From: Hyalangium ruber
GTDB lineage: Bacteria; Myxococcota; Myxococcia; Myxococcales; Myxococcaceae
Reading direction: 5' to 3'
DNA: 64,000 nucleotides
NCBI RefSeq assembly: GCF_034259325.1
Contig: NZ_JAXIVS010000010.1
Coordinates: 248,001-312,000 of the forward strand
A program made the translations under genes and the position numbers. Below, in pieces: positions 8,319 through 22,656 of this stretch. The first letter of the stretch is position 1; the number at the start of each line of letters is the position of its first letter. Below the pieces are notes generated by a model. That model was not told where the DNA came from. It was given only the letters and a program-made list of their open reading frames with translations, and made no database searches.

Positions 8319-8424
8319 GGCGTGCAGTCCTCCCTCGGAGAGTGGAGGGCCTGGCTGCCATTTGTGATGCGGACCCGTCGGCCGCGAGAGCAGACCCGCG
8401 AGGGCCTGCTCCTCCGCCCGCTCC

Positions 8425-10329
8425 TCAATGCACCGGCTGATCCGACCGAAGCACGCGATGGTTGTCCGTGAAATAGACGAAGTCGGCACCATCGACGTGG
8501 AGGAAAGGCGCACCGTTCACGAAGAGTTCGCGCACCGTCGTCCCCTCGACCTGGGGAGGGCCATAGGACTGCCACCGCCCCTGCGCGCGGTCCCAGTACA
8601 TGATCTCCTCGGTGTTTCCGCTGTCCTCGACCGCCAGCAGGTTGCTGAAGCTCGTCGAGGCGAGCGGCACGCGCTCCGAGGTCCCCTTCCAGGTGCGGCC
8701 CAGGTCCTCCGAGCTCGCGGTGAAGGACTTCTGGACCCTGCAGCCGAACAGCTCCGACACACGGCCCAGGAGCTGACCATTCCGGTCCGCGGTGGTCAGC
8801 TCCGGGTGATGGGTGTCGGTGCTCACCGGCGCCTGCTGCGCATCCAGAATGGACGCCGCGTTCACGGCCCGCCAGCTCGCGCCGCCATCGAGGCTCTCCA
8901 ACAACGCGAGCTTGTTGCAGTCGCCGTTGTCGCGGCCGCTCAAGAACAGCCGCCCGGGGATCTCCACGAGCGACTTGACGGTGACCGAAAGGGGACTCGT
9001 GCCCAAGAGCGGCCCGGGCTCGCTCCAGGTGACGCCCTCGTCCCGCGAGAAGCTCAGGCCTCCGGTCCGCGCGAGCGCCAGGCGCCCGTCCCGCAACTTG
9101 TCCAGGAAGTACGTATTGGGGAAGAAGCGCTCCACCTTCCACTCGGTGTCGCCATGCGTGTAGGTGATGAACCCCTGGTTCCAGAGCCCGGCGTAGCGCC
9201 CGGGGCTCATGGGGAAGGCGCGGATCAGGTTGCCCGGCGTCAGGTTGGCCACGGTGGGCGGGTTGAGAATGCCGAGCGAGGTATCGGGCGCGGCGCTGAC
9301 GAAGTTACTGAGCAGCGCCAGGTTGAAGTAGTACTCGCCGCCTCGGTAGAAGAGCGTCTCCAGGGACTTGTCCGTCGCGTAGCGCTCGAGCGTGAAGACT
9401 TGCTGGTAGCTGCGCCCCTCGTCGGTGGAGCGGTACGCCACGTCCCGGAAGTGCAGCTCGCCGGGCACGGGCTCCTCCATCGTCATCATGGAGCCCCGGT
9501 TGCCGATGCCGCCGGGCATCGCCGCGCCCACCCAGCTCGCGCCACCGTCGTGCGAGACGAAGGTCATGTTCGGCGTGCGCGCGAAGAGGGTGCCCGCGCG
9601 CGTGACGAACAGGTCCACGCCTCTCCAATCGATCGAGCCCTGCTCGTTGGGCATGACAGGCACCTGCTGCCAGGTCTGACCGTCATCCCGCGACACCTGG
9701 AGCCCGAAGTAGGAGGCCACATAGATGTCGCCATTGGCGGTGAAGTGAACCGAGGGCTGGTACGTGCGGTAGCTGAACGGCAGGGGCGGCAGCTCCACCT
9801 CGGGCCAGGGCGCATCCTCGGTGAATCGCTGTCGACGGCCGAGCCACACCCGAGCCGTCTCATCGCCTCGCTGGGAGGTGCCGGCGTCCACCTGCTGCCG
9901 CACGGTGAAGAGGGTGTCGCCGTTGCGCAGCCCCCACGCGCTCCAGCCCGGCTCCCCGTTGAGGTAGTAGATGATGTCCGTGTCGAGCTGGATATAGGCC
10001 AGCCCGTGCTGGCCGGTGTGGGCAATGCCGGAGGTGGGCGTGACGAAGACCCACTTGTGGATGGAGCCGAGCGCCCCGGCGTTGATCTCCTTCCAGGTGC
10101 GGCGCCTGTCGAAGGAGACGACCACGTTGGCGGAGAGCAGATAGACGCTGTCGCCCATCGCCTCCACCTGCTGGAGGACGCGCGGATCAGCGCCCTCCAC
10201 CGGCGGCGTGACGTAGACGAGCGGAAACGCCGAGCCATCCAGCTGCGGCTCTTGGGGCTTCTTCGAGGGACAGCCGCACAGGAGCGCGAGCACGCCCAGC
10301 GCGGTGACGAGACGGAACGAGACGGACAT
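8425..10329 (-). CDS. BNR/sialidase-fold repeat lipoprotein
   Basis: A 634-residue predicted lipoprotein (signal segment ending LALLCG with lipidated Cys20). At least six Asp-box (BNR) motifs of the form S-x-D-x-G-x-(S/T)-W are spread along it: SRDDGQTW, SHDGGASW, STDEGRSY, SRDEGVTW, SLDGGASW, SEDLGRTW. This indicates a beta-propeller like that of sialidases and photosystem-assembly factors. The catalytic Arg triad and Tyr/Glu of true sialidases cannot be identified by eye, so enzyme activity is not claimed. ATG 10329 begins directly with the signal peptide; an in-frame GTG lies 12 bases upstream. It may be co-transcribed with dnaN (59-base gap). Confidence 0.75.
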   Translation of the reverse strand: MSVSFRLVTALGVLALLCGCPSKKPQEPQLDGSAFPLVYVTPPVEGADPRVLQQVEAMGDSVYLLSANVVVSFDRRRTWKEINAGALGSIHKWVFVTPTSGIAHTGQHGLAYIQLDTDIIYYLNGEPGWSAWGLRNGDTLFTVRQQVDAGTSQRGDETARVWLGRRQRFTEDAPWPEVELPPLPFSYRTYQPSVHFTANGDIYVASYFGLQVSRDDGQTWQQVPVMPNEQGSIDWRGVDLFVTRAGTLFARTPNMTFVSHDGGASWVGAAMPGGIGNRGSMMTMEEPVPGELHFRDVAYRSTDEGRSYQQVFTLERYATDKSLETLFYRGGEYYFNLALLSNFVSAAPDTSLGILNPPTVANLTPGNLIRAFPMSPGRYAGLWNQGFITYTHGDTEWKVERFFPNTYFLDKLRDGRLALARTGGLSFSRDEGVTWSEPGPLLGTSPLSVTVKSLVEIPGRLFLSGRDNGDCNKLALLESLDGGASWRAVNAASILDAQQAPVSTDTHHPELTTADRNGQLLGRVSELFGCRVQKSFTASSEDLGRTWKGTSERVPLASTSFSNLLAVEDSGNTEEIMYWDRAQGRWQSYGPPQVEGTTVRELFVNGAPFLHVDGADFVYFTDNHRVLRSDQPVH

Positions 10330-10388: not shown

Positions 10389-11495
10389 TCAGACGCGCAT
10401 CGGCATGACCACGGCGGTGAAGCTGCGGTCACCCGGCGCGTGGAGCACGCCCGGGCTGTGCTCGTCGCCCAGCTCGAAGGACACCTCATCCGTCTCGGTG
10501 ACGGTGAGCACGTCGGTCAGGTAGCGGGCGTTGAAGCCGATGGTGATGTCCCCGCCCCGGTAGGCCACGTCCAGCACGTCGCGGGCCTCGCCCAGGTCCG
10601 GGTTGTTGGCGGTGATGAGGAGCTTGTTCTCCTCCAGGCCGATGCGCACCGCGTAGCTCTTGTCGGCCGACAAGAGGGCGATGCGCTTGAGGCTCTCCAG
10701 GAAGCGTACCTTGGAGACCTGGATGACCTTCTCGCCTTCCTTGGGGATGACGCGCTGGTACTCGGGGAACTGGCCGTCGATGAGGCGCATCACCATGGTG
10801 AGGCCCGGCTTCTTGAACAGCGCCGAGTTCTCCGCGAAGCCCAGGTGGCTCTCCGCGTCGGGGGCCTCGTCCAGCAGGCGCTTGAGCTCCATCAGGCCCT
10901 TGCGGGGGATGATGACGCCGCCCTTGAGCTTGAAGTCGCCGGGCAGCTCGCGCTCGATGAGCGACAGGCGGTGGCCGTCGGTGGCCACCATGCGCACCTT
11001 GCCGGTGGACTGGGGCTCGAAATAGACGCCGTTGAGGATGTAGCGCGTCTCGTCCGAGGAGATGGCGAACTGGGTCTTCTTGATCATCTCCAGCAGGATG
11101 TTGCCGGAGACCTGCACCAGCGGAGCGTTCTCCTCCTTGGGCAGCTTGGGGTACTCCTCGGCGGCCATGCCGACGATCTTGAAGTGCGCCGAGCCGCTGG
11201 AGATGTCCACGTAGTTGTTGGCCAGCTTCTTGAGCGTCACCTGCGCGTCGGGCAGGTTCTGGACGATGTCGAAGACGTACTTGGCGCTGACCGTGATGGC
11301 GCCGGGCTTGGACACCTCGGCCGGGTGCTCGGAGACGATGCCGATGTCCAGGTCGAAGGCGGTGACCGTGACGCCGCTTTTGGTGGCGTTGACGAGCACG
11401 TTGGCCAGGATGGGCATCGTCGTCTTGCGCTCCACGATGCCCTGGGCGCGGTGGAGGGCCCTCTTCAGCTCGTCGGTGGCGATGCGGAATTCCAT
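10389..11495 (-). CDS. dnaN: DNA polymerase III beta sliding clamp
   Basis: A 368-residue protein, the usual length of bacterial beta clamps (about 366). It forms the ring-shaped processivity clamp that tethers Pol III and binds mismatch-repair and translesion partners. The N-terminus MEFRIATDELKRAL...TMPILANVLV and the C-terminus ending VVMPMRV are characteristic, and the three repeated clamp subdomains are spread evenly. The start at 11495 has AAGGAAG six bases upstream. Neither dnaA, recF nor gyrB lies next to it, so the classical dnaA-dnaN-recF order is not present here. It is divergent from msrB. Confidence 0.96.
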   Translation of the reverse strand: MEFRIATDELKRALHRAQGIVERKTTMPILANVLVNATKSGVTVTAFDLDIGIVSEHPAEVSKPGAITVSAKYVFDIVQNLPDAQVTLKKLANNYVDISSGSAHFKIVGMAAEEYPKLPKEENAPLVQVSGNILLEMIKKTQFAISSDETRYILNGVYFEPQSTGKVRMVATDGHRLSLIERELPGDFKLKGGVIIPRKGLMELKRLLDEAPDAESHLGFAENSALFKKPGLTMVMRLIDGQFPEYQRVIPKEGEKVIQVSKVRFLESLKRIALLSADKSYAVRIGLEENKLLITANNPDLGEARDVLDVAYRGGDITIGFNARYLTDVLTVTETDEVSFELGDEHSPGVLHAPGDRSFTAVVMPMRV

Positions 11496-11831
11496 CGGAG
11501 GCTTCCTTGGATCCTCGGTGAACGGCTCTGCCCGGGGGGTGTAGCCCGGGGATTGGGGTGCGTCAACGAACCGGCTCGCCGCTCCGTGCTCCAGTAGGCG
11601 GGGCAAGCCGGAGGACGGAACCATTCCGTCCCCACCTGCTCGGAGATTCAGGTAGGTTCCGCACTTGGGGTGAATCCGAGGCCGAAGACTCTACACGATT
11701 CCAACCCGGAAGGTTGTCCGAGATTTTCGTGCCGCGACAGGTAGGCTCCTGCCTCGCCTCCCCGCCCCGCCTCCAGGCGGGCGTGAAACCCGAGCAGGGG
11801 CTCGTGCATATAAGGAGGCAGGAGGTCCGCC
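11496..11831. other. Divergent intergenic region between dnaN and msrB
   Basis: There are 336 bases without a gene, and it must hold promoters for both dnaN (leftward) and msrB (rightward). A perfect palindrome, GGACGGAA-cca-TTCCGTCC, lies at 11613-11631 and could be an operator or hairpin. The repeated GCCCGGGG near 11540 and a TATAAGGAGG just before msrB are the only other marks. No confident -35/-10 pair is visible. Confidence 0.5.
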
Positions 11832-12248
11832 ATGGACACACCGAAGAACCCGCCCTCGAAGGTGACCAAGACGGAGGAGGAGTGGAAGAAGGAGCTCGAC
11901 CCGGAGCAGTACCGCATCCTCCGTAAGAAGGGGACCGAGCGGGCGTTCACCGGGGCGCTGTGGAACCACCACGACACCGGCACGTACCAGTGCGCCGGGT
12001 GCGGCAACCCGCTGTTCACCTCGGACACCAAGTTCGAGTCGGGCTGCGGCTGGCCGAGCTTCTACGCGCCGCTGGAGAAGAGCCACGTGGACGAGCACGA
12101 GGACCTCTCGTTCGCCATGCGCCGTACGGAGGTAGTGTGCAGCCGCTGCGAGGGGCACCTGGGGCACGTGTTCCCGGACGGGCCCGCGCCCACGGGGCTA
12201 CGCTACTGCATCAACTCGGCGGCGCTTAAGTTCGAGAAGAAGGGCTGA
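11832..12248 (+). CDS. msrB: Peptide-methionine (R)-S-oxide reductase
   Basis: A 138-residue MsrB. It reduces the R-epimer of methionine sulfoxide in proteins, using thioredoxin as electron donor, and repairs oxidative damage in the cytoplasm. Seen directly: two zinc-binding CxxC pairs (CAGC, CSRC), the GCGWPSF signature, the GHVFPDGP loop and the catalytic Cys in RYCINSAAL. The length is typical of a free-standing MsrB without MsrA fusion. No signal peptide is present. A strong GGAGGCAGGAGG ribosome site precedes the ATG. The next gene follows within 25 bases, so they may be co-transcribed. Confidence 0.97.
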
Positions 12249-12272: not shown

Positions 12273-12722
12273 ATGAACGTCCGTCTCCTGTCGCTGTCCG
12301 TGCTGTGCCTGGGCCTGGTGGCCGGGTGCGCGAAGCAATCTCCTACCCCCGAGGCTCCCTTGCCCGATACCGCTCAGCCCGCGCAGCCGGCGAACCCCTC
12401 GGGGGCCGCGTCCACCTCGGAGGCCGCTGGGCAGGGGCAGCCGGTGGCGTATGTGGTGCGCAACAGCGGCATCCGGTGCATCGCCCCGCCGTGCGCCACG
12501 CACCTGGCGGTGCCGGTGGCGAACCCGAGCGCGGATGCGATCCAGATTCACGAGATCGACCTCTCGGCGCTCAACCCCTCGCAGGAGCGGCAGGAGGAAC
12601 TCATGCGCACGGCGGACGAGTCGCCGGACGGGTTGAAGGTGGAGGCGGTGCTCGACAAGCAGCTGAAGGCGGGGCCCGCAGGCGACGCCACGGTGCTGCG
12701 GGTGAAGAAGGTCCTGCAGTAG
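12273..12722 (+). CDS. Small lipoprotein, DUF6748-like
   Basis: A 149-residue lipoprotein (LGLVAGC, lipidated Cys19), followed by a Pro/Ala-rich linker to about residue 50. The folded part starts VAYVVRNSGIRCIAPPCATHL, with two cysteines that may pair, and continues to KVKKVLQ-like strands at the end. The pattern resembles the DUF6748 domain found mostly in myxobacterial lipoproteins; that assignment is from memory and tentative. Function unknown. It lies 24 bases after msrB and 21 before the next ORF, consistent with an operon. Confidence 0.7.
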   Translation: MNVRLLSLSVLCLGLVAGCAKQSPTPEAPLPDTAQPAQPANPSGAASTSEAAGQGQPVAYVVRNSGIRCIAPPCATHLAVPVANPSADAIQIHEIDLSALNPSQERQEELMRTADESPDGLKVEAVLDKQLKAGPAGDATVLRVKKVLQ

Positions 12723-13433: not shown

Positions 13434-15716
13434 TCAGATGCGCAGGCCGAACTGCATGCCCGGCCAGTGCTGCACCGTGACCTCCTCGCTCAGCTTGTTC
13501 TGACGCACCGGCAGCGTCGTCATCTTGCGCCGGTCCGAGTCACTGAAGGCGAAGTAGGCGTTGTATGTCGGCCCGCCGAACACCGCGAAGCGCTTGGCCA
13601 CCTGGAAGCCGAACATCGCCCGCCCTTGTGCCAGCACGTTCTCCCCGCGGAAGGGCTGACGCACCGTGTGGACCGTGCTGCCCGCCGTGTCCACGTCCAG
13701 CCAGAAGCGCGGCCCCAGCGGCAGGTGAACTCCCAACCCCAGGCCGAGGGTGTAGCGGTCCAGCCGGTCATCCGGGCCGATGCCCGCCAGCAGCGTCGTG
13801 TACACGTACTTGCCGCCGAACTTCACCGCCACGTTCGTCAGCTGCACGTCGCTCGCCCAGAACTCCAGGTGCAGCTGCCCCTTCTCCTCGAAGGTGAGCA
13901 GCCCCAGTGGAACACCGCGCACCTCCTCGGCCACGTTGATCAACCCCACCTGCGCCCCCGACACCACCTTGCCCACGTTGATCAACCCCACCTGCGCGCC
14001 CGTCACATCCCCGCTCACGTTGAGCAGCGCCAGTTGCAGGCCCTTCACGCTCTCGGCTCGGTTGTAGCCCGCCGTCGCCTGCAGGCCCGACATCGCGCCA
14101 TCCACCCAGTTCATCCCCGCCGAGCCCTGGAAGCCTCGGAAGCCCCCGCGCGCCACGTTCACGCCCGCCGTCGCCTGCACGCCCAGGAAGTCTCCGCCCG
14201 CCACGTTCACGCCCGCGCTCATCTGCGTGCCCGCCACGGCGCCTCCCGCCACGTTCACACCGGCCGCGAACTGCCCCACCCGCACATTCCCGCCCGCCAC
14301 GTTCACGCCCGCCGTCATCTGTAGGCCGTTCAGGTCCTCGCGCGCCACGTTGAGCGCCGTCGCCAGCTGCGCCCCGCGCACGCTGCCACCCGCCACGTTC
14401 AGGCCCGCCGCCATCGCCAGGCCGCGCACTTCCTCGTCATACGCGTTGGACACCAGCGCCACCGCCGCGCCGCCCGCCAGCGCCGTCCCATCGTTCATCA
14501 CGCCCACCGCCGCCCGGTTCTCCACCGGCCCACCCTGCGCCGCCACCGCGTTGATGCTCACTCCGGGCAGCAGGCCCGCGTTGAAGGGCACCAGCCTGCG
14601 CCCCGGGCCCGCCGCGCTCACCGCCGCCACGGGCGCTCCAGCCGTAAGCACCGGCGCCTCGCCACCGCGAGACACTGTCGCCTCGCGCAGCACCGAGCCG
14701 AAGTGGGTCGGCGCCAGCGGCGTGCGCTGCCCCTCGGTGAGCACGAAGCTCGCCTCGGACACCGCCCCGTTCAGCTCGCGCCGCACCTGGTAGCGCCCCG
14801 GCGCCAGCCCCAGCTCCGTGGGCCGCCCCGGCGTCTTCAGCAGCTCCACCACCAGCACGCCCGCCTCGTCGCGGACGAAGAAGCGCCCCTCCAGCCCGTC
14901 CGCCAGCACCAGCCCCGCGGAGGTGGCCCGCAGGTCCGTCATCACCAGGTCCCCCGTGCCCGCCAGCTCGATGTCATAGGCCGGGTGCTGCGCCCCACCC
15001 TGGGTGCGCTCGGTGCGCGCCAGCGTCTCGTGGAAGGCGAACTGGTAGGCCTCGTTGAGCGTCACCCGTCCATCCCGCGTCACATCCGCCGCGCCGCGCA
15101 GGCCGGAGACCAGGTGGTGGGTGAAGAACGAGCCACCCAGCCGGTCCGACTCCTGCGACACCTCATCCGCGCTGGAGGAGGTGAGGATGGCCTGCCCTTT
15201 CACCTGGCTGCCCGAGTCCACCATGAACGCCGGGCGCGGAGTGCCACCCTTGCGGCGCGCGAACGCCCCCGAGGCGCACGAGTCCAGCACCGCGATGCGC
15301 ACATCCACCGGCAGGGCCGCCAGCGCGCGGCGCAGCTCGCCGTAGTCCACGCGGTCACCCTGCAGCAGCAGGCCCTCGTCGTCCGAGTGCCCCGAGTAGT
15401 AGAGCAGCATCTCCACCCGCTGGGCCCCCGAGGCGCGCGCGGCCTCCGCCAGGGACTTCACCCGCGCGAAGCCGTCCATCAACCCCGTGCGCCCCGTGTC
15501 CAGCAGCAGCACCCGGTCCGCCGGCGTCACCCCGCCCAGCTCGCCCAGCACCTTCGAGAAGGCCTGCGCATCCGTGGTGGCGTAGCGCAACTTCACGCGC
15601 TCCGCTCCGCCGTCATTCACGCCCACCAGCAGCGCCAGCCGACGCACCGCCACGGGCGTCTCCGCGGCGGACACTCCCGCCACCAGCAGCGTCAGCAGCA
15701 TCAGCACTCGAGTCAT
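13434..15716 (-). CDS. Caspase-like (peptidase C14) protein with NVAGG repeats and C-terminal beta-rich domain
   Basis: A 760-residue exported protein (signal peptide 1-18). The caspase-fold domain (about 24-260) has the catalytic dyad His110 (YYSGHSDDEG) and Cys147 (VLDSCASGAF). An EF-hand-like loop follows (DVTRDGRVTLNE), as in many bacterial caspase homologues. Residues about 395-620 are a run of roughly 21-residue units around (A/G)xNVAGGxxxGxQ. The C-terminal 130 residues alternate hydrophobic and polar (YTLGLGLGVHLPLGPRFWLDVD), like an outer-membrane barrel or beta-sandwich. The ATG overlaps the previous stop (ATGA, 15713-15716). The protease may be anchored at, or act on, the outer membrane; the substrate is unknown. 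Confidence 0.85.
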   Translation of the reverse strand: MTRVLMLLTLLVAGVSAAETPVAVRRLALLVGVNDGGAERVKLRYATTDAQAFSKVLGELGGVTPADRVLLLDTGRTGLMDGFARVKSLAEAARASGAQRVEMLLYYSGHSDDEGLLLQGDRVDYGELRRALAALPVDVRIAVLDSCASGAFARRKGGTPRPAFMVDSGSQVKGQAILTSSSADEVSQESDRLGGSFFTHHLVSGLRGAADVTRDGRVTLNEAYQFAFHETLARTERTQGGAQHPAYDIELAGTGDLVMTDLRATSAGLVLADGLEGRFFVRDEAGVLVVELLKTPGRPTELGLAPGRYQVRRELNGAVSEASFVLTEGQRTPLAPTHFGSVLREATVSRGGEAPVLTAGAPVAAVSAAGPGRRLVPFNAGLLPGVSINAVAAQGGPVENRAAVGVMNDGTALAGGAAVALVSNAYDEEVRGLAMAAGLNVAGGSVRGAQLATALNVAREDLNGLQMTAGVNVAGGNVRVGQFAAGVNVAGGAVAGTQMSAGVNVAGGDFLGVQATAGVNVARGGFRGFQGSAGMNWVDGAMSGLQATAGYNRAESVKGLQLALLNVSGDVTGAQVGLINVGKVVSGAQVGLINVAEEVRGVPLGLLTFEEKGQLHLEFWASDVQLTNVAVKFGGKYVYTTLLAGIGPDDRLDRYTLGLGLGVHLPLGPRFWLDVDTAGSTVHTVRQPFRGENVLAQGRAMFGFQVAKRFAVFGGPTYNAYFAFSDSDRRKMTTLPVRQNKLSEEVTVQHWPGMQFGLRI

Positions 15717-16522
15717 GGCGACACCTTTTCCAGCGTGAAGGACACCTGCGTGTAGCGCTCCGGGAGGGCGAGCGGCGCGGTGCGAGCGCTGGCCGAAGCG
15801 GCCACCGTGCGCGCCGCGGCGAGCACCTCCTCGAGGGCGAAGGGAGTGTCCGAGGTAATGAGGAAGAAGCGTTCGAAGGCGGGCGCGTCGTCCAGCGCGT
15901 AGGCGCTCGGCAGCGCGTGGGTGCCCGAGGGCGCCAGCGGCACGGCGCCCGTGGCCGCATCGGGCGCATGCAGCGTCACCGCGCCGCGCCCGTCCACGGA
16001 GAGGATGGCGCCGTAGCGCTGGCCCGCGGCCACATAGGAGACCTGCACCACGTCACCGGTGGCGGCGGCGGCGCCATCGACGAGGCGCTCCGGGCCGGCG
16101 GCGCCCTGGCGGTGGAGGACGAGCTGGGGCGCGAGGCCCTTGGTGCGCGTCGGCTCGAGCCCAGACAGCTCCCCGCTCCCGCCCGTGGGTGTGCCTTCCG
16201 GGCGCACCACCATCAGCAGCGCCACGGCGAGCGCCGGCACCAGCACGAAGGCCGGAGCGATGCGGCGCAAAGGGCTGACGCTCCCTCGGGCCACCTCCAT
16301 GCGCCGAGCCTGGGCCGCGCGCAGCTCCACCTCGCGGGCCACGGCCGAGGGCGGCAACTTCTCCAGCACGTCCCGGTTCTCCGCCTCGAGCGCGGCCAGG
16401 CGGGCCTCTCCCTCGGGCTCCTCCGCCAGGCGGGCGCGCGCCGCGGCCAGCTCCGCGGCGGGCAGCTCGCCCAGGGCGATGCGCTCCAGCAACCAATCCG
16501 GAGTACGGCGCGGGGTCGTCAT
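15713..16522 (-). CDS. DUF4384-like membrane protein, probable anti-sigma factor
   Basis: A 269-residue protein with one transmembrane segment at about 88-106 (APAFVLVPALAVALLMVV). The cytoplasmic N-terminus has the Glu/Ala/Leu-rich anti-sigma-like pattern (DWLLERIALGELPAAELAAARARL). The periplasmic part (about 140-265) reads like a DUF4384 domain: LVLHRQG...LVDGAAAATGDVVQVSYVA...YGAILSVDGRGAVTLHAP. DUF4384 proteins often accompany bacterial caspase homologues. Its start and end overlap its neighbours by ATGA (16519-16522 and 15713-15716), so sigma factor, this protein and the caspase should be made from one mRNA. The anti-sigma role is inferred from position and topology. Confidence 0.75.
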   Translation of the reverse strand: MTTPRRTPDWLLERIALGELPAAELAAARARLAEEPEGEARLAALEAENRDVLEKLPPSAVAREVELRAAQARRMEVARGSVSPLRRIAPAFVLVPALAVALLMVVRPEGTPTGGSGELSGLEPTRTKGLAPQLVLHRQGAAGPERLVDGAAAATGDVVQVSYVAAGQRYGAILSVDGRGAVTLHAPDAATGAVPLAPSGTHALPSAYALDDAPAFERFFLITSDTPFALEEVLAAARTVAASASARTAPLALPERYTQVSFTLEKVSP

Positions 16523-16998
16523 GCGGCCTCCATCTCTTGCAGCGCGGAAGTCAGGCCCCGCAGGCGCTTGCGCACCCCGGAGACGGACAGGCCCACCTCG
16601 CGCGCGGTCTCCTCCAACGTCATTCCATCCACCAGGTGCATCACGGCGATGTCCTGGCTCGAGGCGGGCACGCGGCCGAAGAGCCGGTCCAGCAGCCCCC
16701 GCGCCTCGGTGCGCGCCTCGGTGTCCTCGGAGGAGGCGATGCGCAGCACCAGCTCGTCGTCCCGGTCCTCGGGGCGGCGGCGGGCGCCGCGCAGGCGGTT
16801 GAGACACACCCGCGTGGCGATGCGGTGCAGCAGGCTGGAGGGCGCCGAGTCCTTCAACGCCCCCTGGTAGCGCAACAGCTGCACGAAGACGTCGTGCATG
16901 GCATCCACGGCCTTCTCCTCGTCTCGCAGGAGGAAGCGGCAGCGCCGGAGCACCTGAGGCCCGTAACGGCGGTAGTAGGCCTCCACATCGATTGCCAC
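16519..16998 (-). CDS. ECF-type RNA polymerase sigma factor
   Basis: A 159-residue sigma-70 family ECF factor. The region 2 core is YYRRYGPQVLRRCRFLLRDE followed by AVDAMHDVFVQLL. Region 4 carries a helix-turn-helix (DGMTLEETAREVGLSVSGVRKRL). No extra C-terminal domain is present. I choose GTG 16998 because GGAGGAG lies eight bases upstream; an in-frame GTG at 17034 has no ribosome site. It is the first gene of a three-gene ATGA-coupled operon with a likely anti-sigma factor and a caspase-like protein. ECF operons usually autoregulate, but I cannot pick a convincing promoter in the 288 bases upstream. Confidence 0.9.
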   Translation of the reverse strand: MAIDVEAYYRRYGPQVLRRCRFLLRDEEKAVDAMHDVFVQLLRYQGALKDSAPSSLLHRIATRVCLNRLRGARRRPEDRDDELVLRIASSEDTEARTEARGLLDRLFGRVPASSQDIAVMHLVDGMTLEETAREVGLSVSGVRKRLRGLTSALQEMEAA

Positions 16999-17242
16999 CG
17001 GACTCGCTCCTCCCTCGTTCGCCCCTTGAAACACCAGGGCCGAAAAGAACTGTTACCCGCGCCGTGCTTTTTTCATCGGGCACGCTGCCTACACGTACCT
17101 ACCCGAGAGCTCGGACACGGCGGCACACCGGCTCGCCCCGAGGGGCAGCGGTATACACGCGCCAGGTGTGAGCGAAGAAACGGGCCCGCGCGAGGCGCTC
17201 CGCTCGGGAGCTTCCTCGGGACCTCTCGCCTGCGGAACTGCA

Positions 17243-17286: not shown

Positions 17287-20200
17287 TCAGGGAATGAAGG
17301 AGATGACGCGGCTGGCCTTCGTGTTGTTGCTCTCGATGAGCTCCGGCGTGTACTGCCCGGGGTCCACGATGGCGCCCATGTACCAGGCCCCCGTGTACCA
17401 AGGCGTCACGTAGAGCATCAGGTCCTGCTTCTGGCACTGCCCCGGCGCCAGCGAGCTCACCATGATGACCTCCACCGGCATGTCCTGATCGTAGATCGGC
17501 CCGCTGTACGAGAAGCGGATGTCGGTGTCATCGGAGAGCACCAGCTGCACCTCCGCGCCGCCAGGGACGGTGCCCTGGTTGCACACCGTCACCGAGGCCG
17601 CGTACTGCTGGCCCATCCGCACGCTCGTCGGAGCCGTCACCGACTGGATGATCAGGTCCGGCGCATCACCGATGCCGATGAGGGCGCTGGCCTTCGTGTT
17701 GTTGGTCTCGATGAGCTCCTGCTCGAAGTTGGCGGGATCCGCCACCACCCCCAGGTACCAACCGCCCTGCAGCCCTGACACGGGGATACTGGTGCGCACC
17801 TCCTGCGTGCTGCAATGACCCGGCTCCAGGAACAGCGAGCCCAAGAAGTCCAGCTGCAGATCCTGGCTGTAGGGCGGGGCGTTGTAGGAGAAGCGGATGT
17901 CCGTGTCCTGCGAGAGCACCAGCTGCAGATCGGTGATTCCGGGCCGGGTGCCCTGGTTGCACACGGTGTACTTCACCGTGAACGGCTCATGGGTGCGCGT
18001 GCTGGCCGGGACGAGCACCGACTGGATGATGAAGTCGGGACGTTGGCCCACTCCCACCAGCTTGCTGGCCTTCGTGTTGTTGGTCTCGATGAGCTCCTGC
18101 TCGTAGTTCTCAGCATCCACCACGGCCCCCAGGTACCAGGCCCCCTCGCGAGGAGCATGCGCGATGCCCTCCAGCTCCTGCGTGTTGCACTGGCCCGGCT
18201 CCAGCGGCCCCGAGCTGAACGGCGCCAAGGGAATGTCCTGCGTGTAGGGACTCCCGCTGTAGGAGAAGCGGATGTCCGTGTCCTCGGAGAGCACCAGCTG
18301 TCCCTCCGTGCTCCCGTACTGGGTGCCCTGGTTGCACACCGTCACCGTCACCGTGAACGGCTGGCCCGGCGCCATGCTGGCGGGCACTCCCACCGTCTGG
18401 ACGGTGTAGTCGGGGCGGTAGCCCACGCCCATGAGCGTGCTGGCCTTGGTGTTGTTGCTCTCGATGAGCTCCTCCTCGGAGTCACCCGGGTCCGCCACCG
18501 CGCCCAGGTACCAGCCCCCATCCTCGGGGGCATACACGCTGGTCTGCACCTGCTCCGTCCGGCACTGACCCGGCTCCAGCGGGCCCGAGGAGAAGGAGTT
18601 GAGCGGCATGTCCTGGTTGTACGGCGTGCCGGAGTAGGAGAAGCGGATGGTGCTGTCCTCGGAGAGCACCAGCTGCACCTCGGTGCTCCCGTACCGGGTG
18701 CCCTGGTTGCACACCGTCACCGCGGTCATGAACATCTCACCGGGCCGCGTGCTGGCCGGAGCGGTCACCGACTTGATGATGAAGTCGGCACGCTGGCCCA
18801 CGCCGAAGACCTTGCTGGCCAGCGTGTTGTTGGTCTCGAGGAACTCCTCCTGGTAGTTGCCGGGGTCAGCCACGGCCCCCAGGTACCAGGCCCCCTGCTC
18901 GGAGGCATACGCCTGGGCCTGGACCTGCTGCGTGTTGCACTGGCCCGGCTCCAGCGGCCCCGAGGAGAAGAAGGTCAGCAGTTCGTCCCGCTGCTCATAG
19001 GGAGCCCCGTTGTAGGAGAAGCGGATGGTGGTGTCCTGAGACAGCACCAACGCCAGCTCCGTATCGCCGAACCCGGTGCCCTGGTTGCACACCGTCACCG
19101 AGGCCGTGAAGTCCTGGCCCAGCTCCACGCTGGTGGGCCCGCTCACCGCCTGGATGACGAAGTCGGGGCGGAAGCCCACGCCGATGGGCTTGCTGGCCAG
19201 CGTGTTGTTGCTCTGGATGAGCTCCTCCTCGTAGTTGCTCGGATTCGCCACCGCGCCCAGGTACCAGACGCGATCCATCTCCAGGGCGGGCAGGCTGGTC
19301 TGCACCTGCTCGGTCCGGCACTGTCCGGGCTCCAGCGGCCCCGAGCCGAAGGAGGTCACCGGCCAATCCTGCCCATAGGGAGGCGCGTTGTACGAGAAGC
19401 GGATGTCGGTGTCCGCGGAGAGCACCAGCTGCACCTCGGTGTTGCCGTACTCGGTGCCCTGGTTGCACACCGTCACCGAGGCCGTGAACGACTGGTCCGG
19501 CACCACGCTGGCCGGGACGCTCACCGCCTGGATGACGTAGTCGGGACCGTGGCCCACGCCCATGAGCGCACTGGCCTTGGTGTTGTTGCTCTCGATGAGC
19601 TCCTCATGGGAGTTGCCCGGGTCCGCCACCGCGCCCAGGTACCACCCCCCGTACTGCTGGGGATGGGCGCTGGTCTGCAGCTGCTGCGTCCGGCACTGCC
19701 CAGGCTCCAGCGGCCCCGAGTAGAGGGAGCCGATCGGCATGTCCTGGTTGTAGGGAGGACCGCCATAGGAGAAGCGGATGGTGGTGTCCTCGGAGAGCAC
19801 CAGCTGCACCTCGGTGCTCCCGTACTCGGTGCCCTGGTTGCACACCGTCACCGAGGCGACGAAGTAATCGCCCGGCGCCACGCTGGCGGGGCCCGTCACC
19901 GACTGGATGACGTAGTCGGGACGGCTGCCCACACCGGTGAGCCTGCTGGCCTTGGCGTTGTTGCTCTCGATGAGCTCCTCATGAGAGCTGCTCGGGTCCG
20001 CCACCGCGCCCAGGTACCAGCCCCCCTGATGCGGGGGGAACACCCGGGTGTGAACCTGCTCGGTCCGGCACTGCCCGGGCTCCAGGGGCCCCGAATAGAA
20101 GCTGTCGATCGGCTCGTCTCGCTCATACGGAGCGCTGTCGTAGGAGAAGCGGATGGTGCTGTCCTCGGAGAGCACCAGCTGCACATCGGTGCTCCCGTAC

Positions 20201-22656
20201 TCGGTGCCCTGGTTGCACACCGTCACCGTGGCGGTGAACGTATCACCGGGATAGATGCTGGCAGGGCCCGTCACCGACTGGATGATGAAGTCGGGGCGGT
20301 AGCCCACGCCCATGAGCGTGCCGGCCTTCGTGTTGTTCTCCTTGTTGAGCTCCTGCATCACATTGAAGGGATCGAGCACGGCTCCCACGTACCCGTTGTC
20401 ATCCTCCGCCTGGGGCAGGGAGCCGTACACCACCTCGGTCTTGCACTGACCCGGCTCGAGCATTCCCATGAAGAAGGCGTCCATGGGCATGTCCTGGCTG
20501 GGGTACGGAGGTCCGTTGTAGTTGAGGCGAATCTCCGTATCCTCCGAGAACGCCAGCTGCCCGTCCGCATAGCCAGGGGCGGTGCCCTGGTTGCACGCCG
20601 TCACCGAGAAGGCGACCGACTCACCGGGCCTCGCGCTCGCTGGGTGGGTGATCGCCTGGATGATGATGTCCGGGGCATAGCCGACGCCCACCTCTTCTTC
20701 ACTGGCCTTCGCGTTGTTGGCCTCGTTGAGCTCGTACTGGTTGAGCCCCGGGTCCGCCACCGCGCCCAGGTACCAGATGCCCTCGAACGGCGCGGACATG
20801 TTGGCCCACACCTGATGCGTCCGGCACTGCCCCGCCTCCAGCGGCCCCGAATGGAAGGAGCTGAGCGGCAGGTCCTGCCCGTAGGGCATGCCGTCGTAGG
20901 CGAAGCGGATGTCGTTGTCCTGCGAGAGCACCAGCTGCACCTCGGTGCTCCCGTACTCGGTGCCCTGGTTGCACACCGTCACCGAGGCGGTGAATTCATT
21001 CCCCGGCTCCACGCTGGCGGGGCCGCTCACCGACTGGATGATGAAGTCGGGCCGGTAGCCCACGCCCATGACCTTGCTGGCCTTCGTGTTGTTGCTCTCG
21101 TTGAGCTCCCACTCGTTGCTGGCCGGATCCGCCACCGCGCCCAGGTACCAGGCCCCCTCTTGAGAAGGAGTTCCCCAGACCTGCACCGGGTGCGTCCGGC
21201 ACTGCCCGGGCTCCAGCGGCCCCGAGTACAAGGAGGTGAGCGGCAGATCCTGCTCCTCCGGCGGGCCGTTGGGGGAGAACCGAATGGTGGTGTCGCGAGA
21301 GAGCACCAGCTGCACCTCGGTGTTCCCGTACGCGGTGCCCTGGTTGCACACCGTCACCGAGGCGGTGAACTCGTAGTCGGGCCGCACGTTGGCCGGGCCG
21401 CTCACCGACTGGATGATGTAGTCCGGAGCAAGGCCCACGCCCACGAGCTTGCTGGCCTTCGTGTTGTTGGTCTCGATGATTTCCTGCTCGCTGTTGCCCG
21501 GGTCCGCCACGGCGCCCAGGTACCAGTTCCCCTCGCTCGGAGCCTGCATGGAGGCTTCCACCTCTTGCGTCCGGCACTGCCCGGACGCCAGCAGCCCGGA
21601 ATAGAAGGGCGCCAGGGGCAGATCCTGCGCCGCCGGCGGGCCGTTCGGATCGAACTGGATGGTGGTGTCCGTGGAGAGCACCAGCATCATCTCAGCGGAC
21701 CCGGTCCCAATGCCGTGGTTGCACACCGTCACCGCCGTGGTGAACGACTCGCCGGGCCGCACGTTGGCCGGGCCATTCACCGACTGGACGATGTAGTCGG
21801 TGCCGTAGCCCACGCCCACCACCTCACTCGCCTTCGTGTTGTTGGTGTCGATGAGCTCCATGGCGAAATTGCCGGGGTCCGCCACGGCCCCCACGTACCA
21901 GGCGCCCTCTTGCGGAGGTATCGCCTCGACATCCAGCCGATGGGCCCTGCACTGCCCCGGCTCCAGATACCCCGTGTTGAAGGCGTCCATCGGGAAGTCC
22001 GGCCCGGGCGTCGGAACGTCCGGGACGTAGGTGATGGTGGTGTCCGCGGAGAGCACCAGCTGCACCTCGGTGCCGCCGCCCATGGTGCCCTGGTTGCACA
22101 CCGTCACCGTGGCCGGGAAGTAGTAGGCCGGCATCACGCTCTTGGGGACGCTCACCGACTGGACCACGAAGTCCGGAGCGATTCCCACGCCGATGAGGGC
22201 TCCTGCGCGCGTGTTGTTGGCCTCGTTGGCCTCCACCGTGCTGTTGAGGGGGTCGGCGATGGCGCCCGTGTACCAGGCCCCCTCGGGCACCGAGACGTTC
22301 GTGTAGAACCGCTCCGTGAAGCACTGCCCCGCTTCCAGCCAGCCCAGGAACGCACTCCCGATGGACACGTCCAGCGTGGAGATGATCCGGTCTTGCGACA
22401 GGTACACCTCCACGTTGGTGCTCTCCGCCACCGTGCCCTGGTTGCACACGGTGACTTCCACCGGGAACGGCCCATTGGGCCAGGCACTGGGAGGACTGCT
22501 CACCTCCCGGACGACGAAGTCCGGGCCGGCAACCAATGCCTGTCGGGTCTGGTTCAGCGCCTCGGCTTCCTCCGCCGACGGTGCGCCGCAACCAACGGAC
22601 CCGAGCAACGCCGATGCCGATACGAGAAGCAGGGCTCGGTTGACTCTCTCACTCAT
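17287..22656 (-). CDS. Giant lipoprotein of 14 CARDB repeats
   Basis: A 1789-residue predicted lipoprotein (LLGSVGC, Cys23). Almost all of it is 14 tandem CARDB-type (cell-adhesion-related, Ig-like) domains of about 124 residues. Each opens PD(F/Y)(I/V)(I/V)QSV..PAS and contains the invariant TVCNQGT strand, SxDTxIRF and a closing WYLGAVADPxNxxxELIExNNTKAS. CARDB domains are extracellular beta-sandwich modules, so a surface stalk or adhesin is inferred; no catalytic or sorting domain is attached. The NNTKAS and TVCNQGT segments are nearly invariant, pointing to homogenisation by recombination. It appears monocistronic, and a conserved hairpin follows its stop. Confidence 0.88.
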   Translation of the reverse strand: MSERVNRALLLVSASALLGSVGCGAPSAEEAEALNQTRQALVAGPDFVVREVSSPPSAWPNGPFPVEVTVCNQGTVAESTNVEVYLSQDRIISTLDVSIGSAFLGWLEAGQCFTERFYTNVSVPEGAWYTGAIADPLNSTVEANEANNTRAGALIGVGIAPDFVVQSVSVPKSVMPAYYFPATVTVCNQGTMGGGTEVQLVLSADTTITYVPDVPTPGPDFPMDAFNTGYLEPGQCRAHRLDVEAIPPQEGAWYVGAVADPGNFAMELIDTNNTKASEVVGVGYGTDYIVQSVNGPANVRPGESFTTAVTVCNHGIGTGSAEMMLVLSTDTTIQFDPNGPPAAQDLPLAPFYSGLLASGQCRTQEVEASMQAPSEGNWYLGAVADPGNSEQEIIETNNTKASKLVGVGLAPDYIIQSVSGPANVRPDYEFTASVTVCNQGTAYGNTEVQLVLSRDTTIRFSPNGPPEEQDLPLTSLYSGPLEPGQCRTHPVQVWGTPSQEGAWYLGAVADPASNEWELNESNNTKASKVMGVGYRPDFIIQSVSGPASVEPGNEFTASVTVCNQGTEYGSTEVQLVLSQDNDIRFAYDGMPYGQDLPLSSFHSGPLEAGQCRTHQVWANMSAPFEGIWYLGAVADPGLNQYELNEANNAKASEEEVGVGYAPDIIIQAITHPASARPGESVAFSVTACNQGTAPGYADGQLAFSEDTEIRLNYNGPPYPSQDMPMDAFFMGMLEPGQCKTEVVYGSLPQAEDDNGYVGAVLDPFNVMQELNKENNTKAGTLMGVGYRPDFIIQSVTGPASIYPGDTFTATVTVCNQGTEYGSTDVQLVLSEDSTIRFSYDSAPYERDEPIDSFYSGPLEPGQCRTEQVHTRVFPPHQGGWYLGAVADPSSSHEELIESNNAKASRLTGVGSRPDYVIQSVTGPASVAPGDYFVASVTVCNQGTEYGSTEVQLVLSEDTTIRFSYGGPPYNQDMPIGSLYSGPLEPGQCRTQQLQTSAHPQQYGGWYLGAVADPGNSHEELIESNNTKASALMGVGHGPDYVIQAVSVPASVVPDQSFTASVTVCNQGTEYGNTEVQLVLSADTDIRFSYNAPPYGQDWPVTSFGSGPLEPGQCRTEQVQTSLPALEMDRVWYLGAVANPSNYEEELIQSNNTLASKPIGVGFRPDFVIQAVSGPTSVELGQDFTASVTVCNQGTGFGDTELALVLSQDTTIRFSYNGAPYEQRDELLTFFSSGPLEPGQCNTQQVQAQAYASEQGAWYLGAVADPGNYQEEFLETNNTLASKVFGVGQRADFIIKSVTAPASTRPGEMFMTAVTVCNQGTRYGSTEVQLVLSEDSTIRFSYSGTPYNQDMPLNSFSSGPLEPGQCRTEQVQTSVYAPEDGGWYLGAVADPGDSEEELIESNNTKASTLMGVGYRPDYTVQTVGVPASMAPGQPFTVTVTVCNQGTQYGSTEGQLVLSEDTDIRFSYSGSPYTQDIPLAPFSSGPLEPGQCNTQELEGIAHAPREGAWYLGAVVDAENYEQELIETNNTKASKLVGVGQRPDFIIQSVLVPASTRTHEPFTVKYTVCNQGTRPGITDLQLVLSQDTDIRFSYNAPPYSQDLQLDFLGSLFLEPGHCSTQEVRTSIPVSGLQGGWYLGVVADPANFEQELIETNNTKASALIGIGDAPDLIIQSVTAPTSVRMGQQYAASVTVCNQGTVPGGAEVQLVLSDDTDIRFSYSGPIYDQDMPVEVIMVSSLAPGQCQKQDLMLYVTPWYTGAWYMGAIVDPGQYTPELIESNNTKASRVISFIP
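17300..22590 (-). repeat. 14 tandem CARDB-coding repeats of about 372 bp
   Basis: The repeats are recognisable in the DNA by recurring blocks encoding TVCNQGT (CCCTGGTTGCACACCGTCAC on the plus strand) and SNNTKAS. Central copies are the most alike; the first two and the last are the most diverged. Confidence 0.85.

Follow-up and report, generated by a model that had tools for sequence, protein, structure and literature searches.

A sigma factor, anti-sigma and caspase operon of Hyalangium ruber as a candidate cell-surface signalling module

The DNA analysed in this study (the window) is a 64,000-nucleotide stretch of the Hyalangium ruber genome (G000:C10:248001-312000; source genome of 10.77 Mb in 43 contigs). 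Its minus strand carries an operon in which genes for an extracytoplasmic function (ECF) sigma factor, an anti-sigma-type membrane protein and an exported caspase follow one another in this order, as judged from the sequence and its open reading frames (ORFs). The analysis revealed a conserved promoter element, through which the sigma factor appears to control its own operon and a set of cell-surface genes. The predicted location of the caspase is the outer membrane, and the anti-sigma is probably what it acts on. For the complete reading, in which the module regulates itself, serves cell-surface signalling and has the caspase act on the anti-sigma, we consider the case to be evenly balanced. 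A more specific version, in which the outer-membrane caspase is both the site-1 protease and the signal sensor of an ECF sigma pathway in several phyla, cutting the anti-sigma at or near an R-x-K-G motif, is put forward only tentatively. The bacterial caspase encoded here looks like part of a surface-signalling circuit, not a death device.

All operon features described below lie on the minus strand. The sigma stop and the anti-sigma ATG overlap as ATGA at 16519-16522, as do the anti-sigma stop and the caspase ATG at 15713-15716. The first-pass annotation of this DNA had proposed a sigma factor, a one-pass anti-sigma and an exported caspase joined by double ATGA coupling; both overlaps are present in the sequence, and the gene assignments are upheld by homology and conservation. 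The closest named relatives of the operon are found in Myxococcaceae bins, Archangium and Corallococcus. The sigma factor (16519..16998; 159 amino acids (aa) from GTG 16998) is a short protein with sigma-70 regions 2 and 4 only, as in ECF sigma factors. Its longer, 171-aa ORF matched PF04542 (Sigma70_r2; 37.0 bits, cut-off 24) and PF08281 (r4_2; 25.9 bits, cut-off 25.7) in Pfam, and TIGR02937 was matched with 60 bits. Since the longer ORF begins at GTG 17034, within the conserved -10-like element at 17030-17056, GTG 16998 is probably the start of the gene, as the sequence was initially annotated.

The caspase (13434..15716; 760 aa) was identified from its translation, from an AlphaFold2 (AF2) model with a mean predicted local distance difference test score (pLDDT) of 88.4, and from a fold match to metacaspases (7qp1 and 4f6o are the nearest solved folds in Foldseek); a search of PDB sequences with this protein gave nothing significant. 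A hydrophobic leader, most probably a signal peptide of about residues 1-18 (15663..15716; MTRVLMLLTLLVAGVSA in the sequence), precedes the caspase domain, and comparable leaders are present in the orthologues. Residues 25-247 (14976..15644) matched PF00656 (Peptidase_C14) in Pfam with 36.1 bits (cut-off 21.4). The domain contains H110, C147 and D145 (of a DxC motif), all invariant in 65 of the 65 non-redundant cassettes compared, so that a C14 domain is combined with a His/Cys dyad as in metacaspases and orthocaspases. From these active-site residues, which are intact in the sequence, we infer that the protein is an active protease.

The second half of the protein is of a different nature. 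It contains a region of 14-16-residue beta repeats (13917..14429), recognized from DNA repeats, AF2 strands and a match to NF047436 (LA_2272 surface repeats) that is just above the cut-off (26.8 bits), and it ends with an eight-stranded beta domain (residues 614-760; 13437..13877). The AF2 strands and their amphipathicity suggest that this domain is an outer-membrane barrel: amphipathicity is significant in six of the eight strands, and 50 of 58 proteins end in L, F or I, as outer-membrane barrels do. The two termini of such a barrel normally lie on the periplasmic side, and the caspase domain is therefore expected in the periplasm. The barrel also occurs on its own. Stand-alone barrel and repeat proteins are encoded in loci L207, L212 and L218, and in genome G022 a Myxococcus-type operon (L240), likewise ATGA-coupled, encodes the sigma, the anti-sigma and a 203-residue protein (8357-8968) consisting of a leader and the barrel domain only. 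A lipoprotein gene resembling that at window positions 12273-12722 adjoins this barrel-only operon. The H. ruber genome encodes other caspases as well, i.e. one in a polysaccharide deacetylase-caspase-TPR arrangement (L059; G000:C4:576000-594000) and one in a caspase-WD40 arrangement (L062; G000:C16:114000-132000).

The anti-sigma-type protein (15713..16522; 269 aa) was recognized from its translation, its AF2 model (pLDDT 85.8) and its homology to paralogues with a zinc-finger HC2-like N-terminus. It has the layout of a class I anti-sigma, with a cytoplasmic helical N-terminus, a single membrane passage, a periplasmic domain and a gene adjacent to that of the sigma factor. The model places helices at residues 9-80, followed by a hydrophobic segment, predicted to span the membrane at about residues 85-108 (16199..16270; a low-confidence helix), and then by a beta domain. 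The zinc-binding HxxxCxxC motif is lacking in the window protein; aligned paralogues, L063 and L075 among them, do have it (weak zf-HC2 matches). Zinc-free anti-sigma domains of this kind are known, and the lack of the motif is not exclusionary. The initial annotation had assigned a DUF4384 domain to the periplasmic part, and this assignment holds in a qualified form: residues 155-236 (15815..16060) matched PF14326 in Pfam with 16.1 bits, below the gathering cut-off of 27 bits, and the homologous anti-sigma of a paralogous cassette in the same genome (L065) passed it with 28.6 bits, for which reason we refer to the domain as DUF4384-like. Foldseek gave no match to the anti-sigma model at E <= 0.001. 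Between the membrane segment and this domain lies a linker (residues 113-127) that is disordered in the model (pLDDT below 50), and at its border with the DUF4384-like fold conservation and the AF2 model point to a candidate basic cleavage site, R126-x-K128-G129 (16136..16147), whose K-G is present in all 65 cassettes and whose R at position -2 in 55 of them. R-x-K-G was also considered as a caspase-specific cleavage signature; this was dropped, as K-G occurs also in proteins without a caspase neighbour, and the site is retained only as a candidate.

Relatives of the caspase were detected in 52 of the 60 related genomes searched, and most of the orthologue loci keep the order sigma, anti-sigma, caspase. 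A scan of GTDB yielded 80 loci with a caspase relative, of which 9 are cut by contig ends; among the 71 evaluable loci, 50 contain all three genes in order, 12 the anti-sigma and the caspase, and 9 the caspase only. Besides Myxococcota, these loci represent Spirochaetota (one record being Candidatus Marispirochaeta associata strain JC231), Fibrobacterota, FCPU426 and Fermentibacteria, as well as proteobacterial bins; several of the cross-phylum loci are metagenome bins, some of whose labels may be wrong. In a quick tree the spirochaetal caspases cluster together (support 82), and the spread across phyla is therefore not a recent scatter. The distances among sigma factors, anti-sigmas and caspases of the 65 cassettes are correlated (Mantel r 0.78-0.84, a level reached in 0 of 2000 permutations). 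With this and the recurrence of the gene order, the three-gene arrangement is more than chance. The genome of H. ruber itself contains further, more distant cassettes in which the gene order is maintained (L063, L065, L064 and L171) and one divergent arrangement (L170). Myxococcus-like cassettes (L091 and L095; BNCN01000010.1 and BNCN01000015.1) were found in a record labelled Comamonas sp. KCTC 72670, which is probably mislabelled or contaminated.

The overlaps between the genes are less strictly kept than their order. ATGA was found at about 31 and 22 of the 50 respective junctions in the GTDB cassettes (start codons of homologues were mostly assigned automatically), i.e. it is common, not universal. 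The first-pass annotation had deduced a fixed stoichiometry from strict coupling. This is not supported, because translational coupling does not fix stoichiometry; moreover, the overlaps are missing in many homologues and the operon is split in Myxococcus-type genomes, where the sigma gene is unlinked and those of the anti-sigma and the caspase stay together.

The promoter element of the window operon, GTAACAG-N14-GGTGTT (17030..17056), was recognized by its conservation as the predicted -35/-10 for the operon's own sigma. Orthologues share GGTRACAG-N14-GGTGTT upstream of the sigma gene, invariant and with fixed spacing, and in most of the scanned cassette loci, across phyla, an element with at most two mismatches to GTRACAG-N14-GGTGTT precedes the sigma gene. 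Operons of the Anaeromyxobacter type have a variant of it. In three of them (L067, L069 and L133) an additional barrel/repeat gene leads the operon, ahead of the sigma gene, and the variant stands before this extra gene. In the Myxococcus-type genomes with an unlinked sigma, each of the two units, sigma operon and anti-sigma/caspase operon, has retained the element. It was also found in nine of nine anti-sigma/caspase operons that lack the sigma gene, 38-156 nt before the anti-sigma gene, and was absent from eight of nine caspase-only loci (the exception is L151).

Exact matches to the regulon consensus, GTRACA(G/C)-N14-GGTGTT, were collected in 11 genomes plus six more. The 11 cassette genomes contain 38 such sites versus 2 for the reversed pattern, and only 1 site was found in 14 family members lacking the sigma (about 107 Mb of cassette genomes versus 98 Mb). 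A promoter of the operon's own type thus precedes the sigma gene and is tied to the presence of the sigma, a pattern which, on sequence grounds, points to autoregulation. The earlier suggestion that the sigma raises expression of the caspase operon accords with this shared element, which is retained where the genes are unlinked. The genes directly behind the sites mostly begin 9-60 nt away, and nearly all of them have an apparent export signal. Their domains were assigned with Pfam for one representative of most groups, and for the remainder by N-terminal similarity. The predicted targets include a TonB-dependent receptor with a TonB_C-like domain (L204 in the source genome, and L206, L214 and L219), stand-alone barrel/repeat proteins (L207, L212, L218 and L229), GIN-domain proteins (L210, L212, L218, L222 and L228), beta-lactamase-family hydrolases (L209, L223, L225 and L226), penicillin amidase (L213 and L216), a PAF-AH-like hydrolase and a DUF4833 protein. 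The source genome has three sites; one of them (L205; G000:C34:4442-4468, plus strand) is an exact element without a convincing gene behind it. In genome G027 an additional anti-sigma-like gene, apparently truncated or frameshifted, lies right behind a promoter element (L224:2487-3173, minus strand).

Three observations hint at the anti-sigma as the partner of the caspase: the two genes stay together when the sigma gene is lost, no locus with a sigma and a caspase but no anti-sigma was seen among the orthologue and GTDB loci examined, and nearly all anti-sigmas of this type adjoin a caspase (26 of 30 distinct proteins from 16 genomes are encoded in same-strand sigma/anti-sigma/caspase operons). 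A sigma and DUF4384-like anti-sigma pair without a caspase is present in the H. ruber genome (L169:7013-9228 in G000:C2; the next gene is acyl-amino-acid synthase/GNAT-like by eye), and would be a useful caspase-free control. It is also worth mentioning that DUF4384 is an accessory domain of cyanobacterial orthocaspases, and that orthocaspases cut after Arg or Lys (PMC7475262). We infer the following course of events. The inner-membrane anti-sigma would hold the ECF sigma through its cytoplasmic N-terminus, and the exported caspase would be anchored in the outer membrane by its C-terminal eight-stranded barrel, its catalytic domain turned towards the periplasm, where it would confront the DUF4384-like domain of the anti-sigma. 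The barrel/repeat half may sense a surface or outer-membrane signal, upon which the caspase would cleave the anti-sigma near the periplasmic linker, or bind it and expose it for cleavage, and other proteases would then free the sigma. The freed sigma would transcribe GTRACA(G/C)-N14-GGTGTT promoters, i.e. those of its own operon and of anti-sigma/caspase operons elsewhere, as well as those of stand-alone barrel/repeat proteins, the TonB-dependent receptor and other exported proteins. An action of the caspase on the anti-sigma, as opposed to a role as output only, is a possibility that the first-pass annotation had not considered, and the repeat and barrel half of the caspase, the regulon and the paralogous cassettes also go beyond it.

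Several observations weigh against this scheme. The model of the full caspase has a predicted template modelling score (pTM) of only 0.55, which leaves the arrangement of its domains unsure, and a Foldseek search with this model gave no barrel match, as the caspase part dominated the list. For the G022 operon, which carries the barrel only, the scheme would require a caspase that acts in trans. At the candidate cleavage site, K-G is shared by three anti-sigma homologues without a caspase neighbour (L162, L245 and L259) and may be a structural feature. Finally, orphan caspases of this family exist, with neither an anti-sigma nor the promoter element, and some of its members therefore have other jobs.

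Alternatively, the caspase might be an output only. In that case the DUF4384-like domain would sense envelope stress, ordinary regulated proteolysis would release the sigma, and the sigma would raise the amount of surface caspase, whose task would be to trim or destroy proteins that belong to the outer membrane or are foreign. The promoter element does drive, by prediction, the caspase operon along with other exported proteins, and both the caspase-free G022 operon and the orphan caspases fit such a role. However, the anti-sigma and the caspase stay paired even where the sigma is lost, and 26 of 30 is a closer pairing than a single effector among numerous targets would lead one to expect; we regard this explanation as possible, though doubtful. 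It is unlikely that the caspase, or its barrel, protects the anti-sigma against other proteases as long as no signal has come in, so that deletion would switch the sigma on and catalysis would serve self-processing. There is a precedent in the FoxA signalling domain, which protects FoxR and is itself cleaved (PMC11637429), and in G022 the barrel alone is coupled to the sigma and anti-sigma genes; yet self-processing alone need not demand an active site that is invariant in 65 of 65 cassettes, and Pfam revealed no signalling domain in common with FoxA. A programmed-death or anti-phage device, in which the sigma triggers a killing protease, is very improbable: caspase homologues take part in such systems, autolysis in Myxococcus was suggested in PMC3501461 and a Myxococcus ECF sigma controls a defence island (PMC12288465), but the predicted regulon consists of envelope and exported proteins, the protease is exported, the genes have been inherited together over the long term with intact active sites, and PADLOC gave only a weak generic caspase match, so that the link to death and conflict drawn in the initial annotation finds no backing.

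Operons of sigma-70 and metacaspase genes have been noted before. In 2012, four of the five M. xanthus metacaspases were reported to lie in operons with sigma-70 genes, and such operons were listed for Myxococcus, Anaeromyxobacter, Haliangium, Sorangium, Ralstonia and Fibrobacter (Asplund-Samuelsson et al., PMC3501461). The present operon, in which a metacaspase gene is likewise combined with a sigma-70 gene, is very probably of this kind. The text of that paper makes no mention of an anti-sigma or of DUF4384, and neither a barrel in the outer membrane nor a promoter element, a regulon or a mechanism is described in its section on operons; the anti-sigma, the barrel and the regulon are the additions made here. 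A literature search, with most subscription journals outside its scope, found no paper on this system, none joining DUF4384 with ECF anti-sigmas and none describing an ECF/C14 group.

Systems of the FecI/FecR/FecA type have the gene order sigma, anti-sigma, outer-membrane protein, which is also the order observed here. They, and FoxI/FoxR/FoxA, further resemble the operon in having a one-pass anti-sigma with a periplasmic sensor domain and a sigma that drives an outer-membrane partner (PMC11637429). That partner is a TonB-dependent transducer, whereas here it is a caspase with a small eight-stranded barrel, and a TonB-dependent receptor is instead encoded elsewhere, among the predicted targets. 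In the window caspase, Pfam detected neither a plug nor a receptor barrel nor an STN domain. In the DegS/RseA/sigma-E pathway, an envelope-stress sigma has an anti-sigma regulated by periplasmic proteolysis. The likeness to the present scheme lies in this arrangement (the pathway is cited too in PMC10028731), whereas the protease and the periplasmic domain of the anti-sigma are unrelated, and the protease of the present scheme is co-transcribed, with a predicted location in the outer membrane. Type III-E CRISPR systems, in which the caspase-type Csx29 cuts the inhibitor Csx30 and frees the ECF sigma CASP-sigma, likewise encode a caspase-superfamily protease, a sigma inhibitor and an ECF sigma together (PMC10028731). 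Their protease is a CRISPR-activated TPR-CHAT protein; the exported window caspase, with its predicted outer-membrane barrel, matched C14 and not CHAT in Pfam, and no TPR was found. Caspase domains and ECF sigmas also share a neighbourhood in the EACC1/EACC2 conflict systems (PMC8195603). An EACC-type fusion is not present here, no TRADD-N or NTPase parts were seen, and the score against NF047832 (EACC1-associated caspase) was 59 bits versus a cut-off of 140.

Discussions of bacterial caspases usually centre on death or conflict. The present data concern a large caspase family that is linked to a sigma/anti-sigma pair, with a predicted outer-membrane location and a place in a surface-protein regulon common to several genera. 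The same promoter element precedes the operon in several phyla and names candidate targets, and it offers a direct way to test the role of these caspases in a myxobacterium amenable to genetics. Should the caspase cut the anti-sigma, this would add a second case, independent of the CRISPR CASP system, of a sigma factor under caspase-type control, but one that works at the cell surface.

The minus strand also carries, immediately upstream of the operon, a gene (17287-22656) for an exported 1789-aa protein with approximately 14 repeats, CARDB-like by eye, whose stop codon is about 230 nt before the promoter element. On the other side, translations inspected by eye revealed an apparent DnaN (beta clamp) gene (10389-11624, minus strand) and an apparent MsrB gene (11832-12248, plus strand) near the operon.

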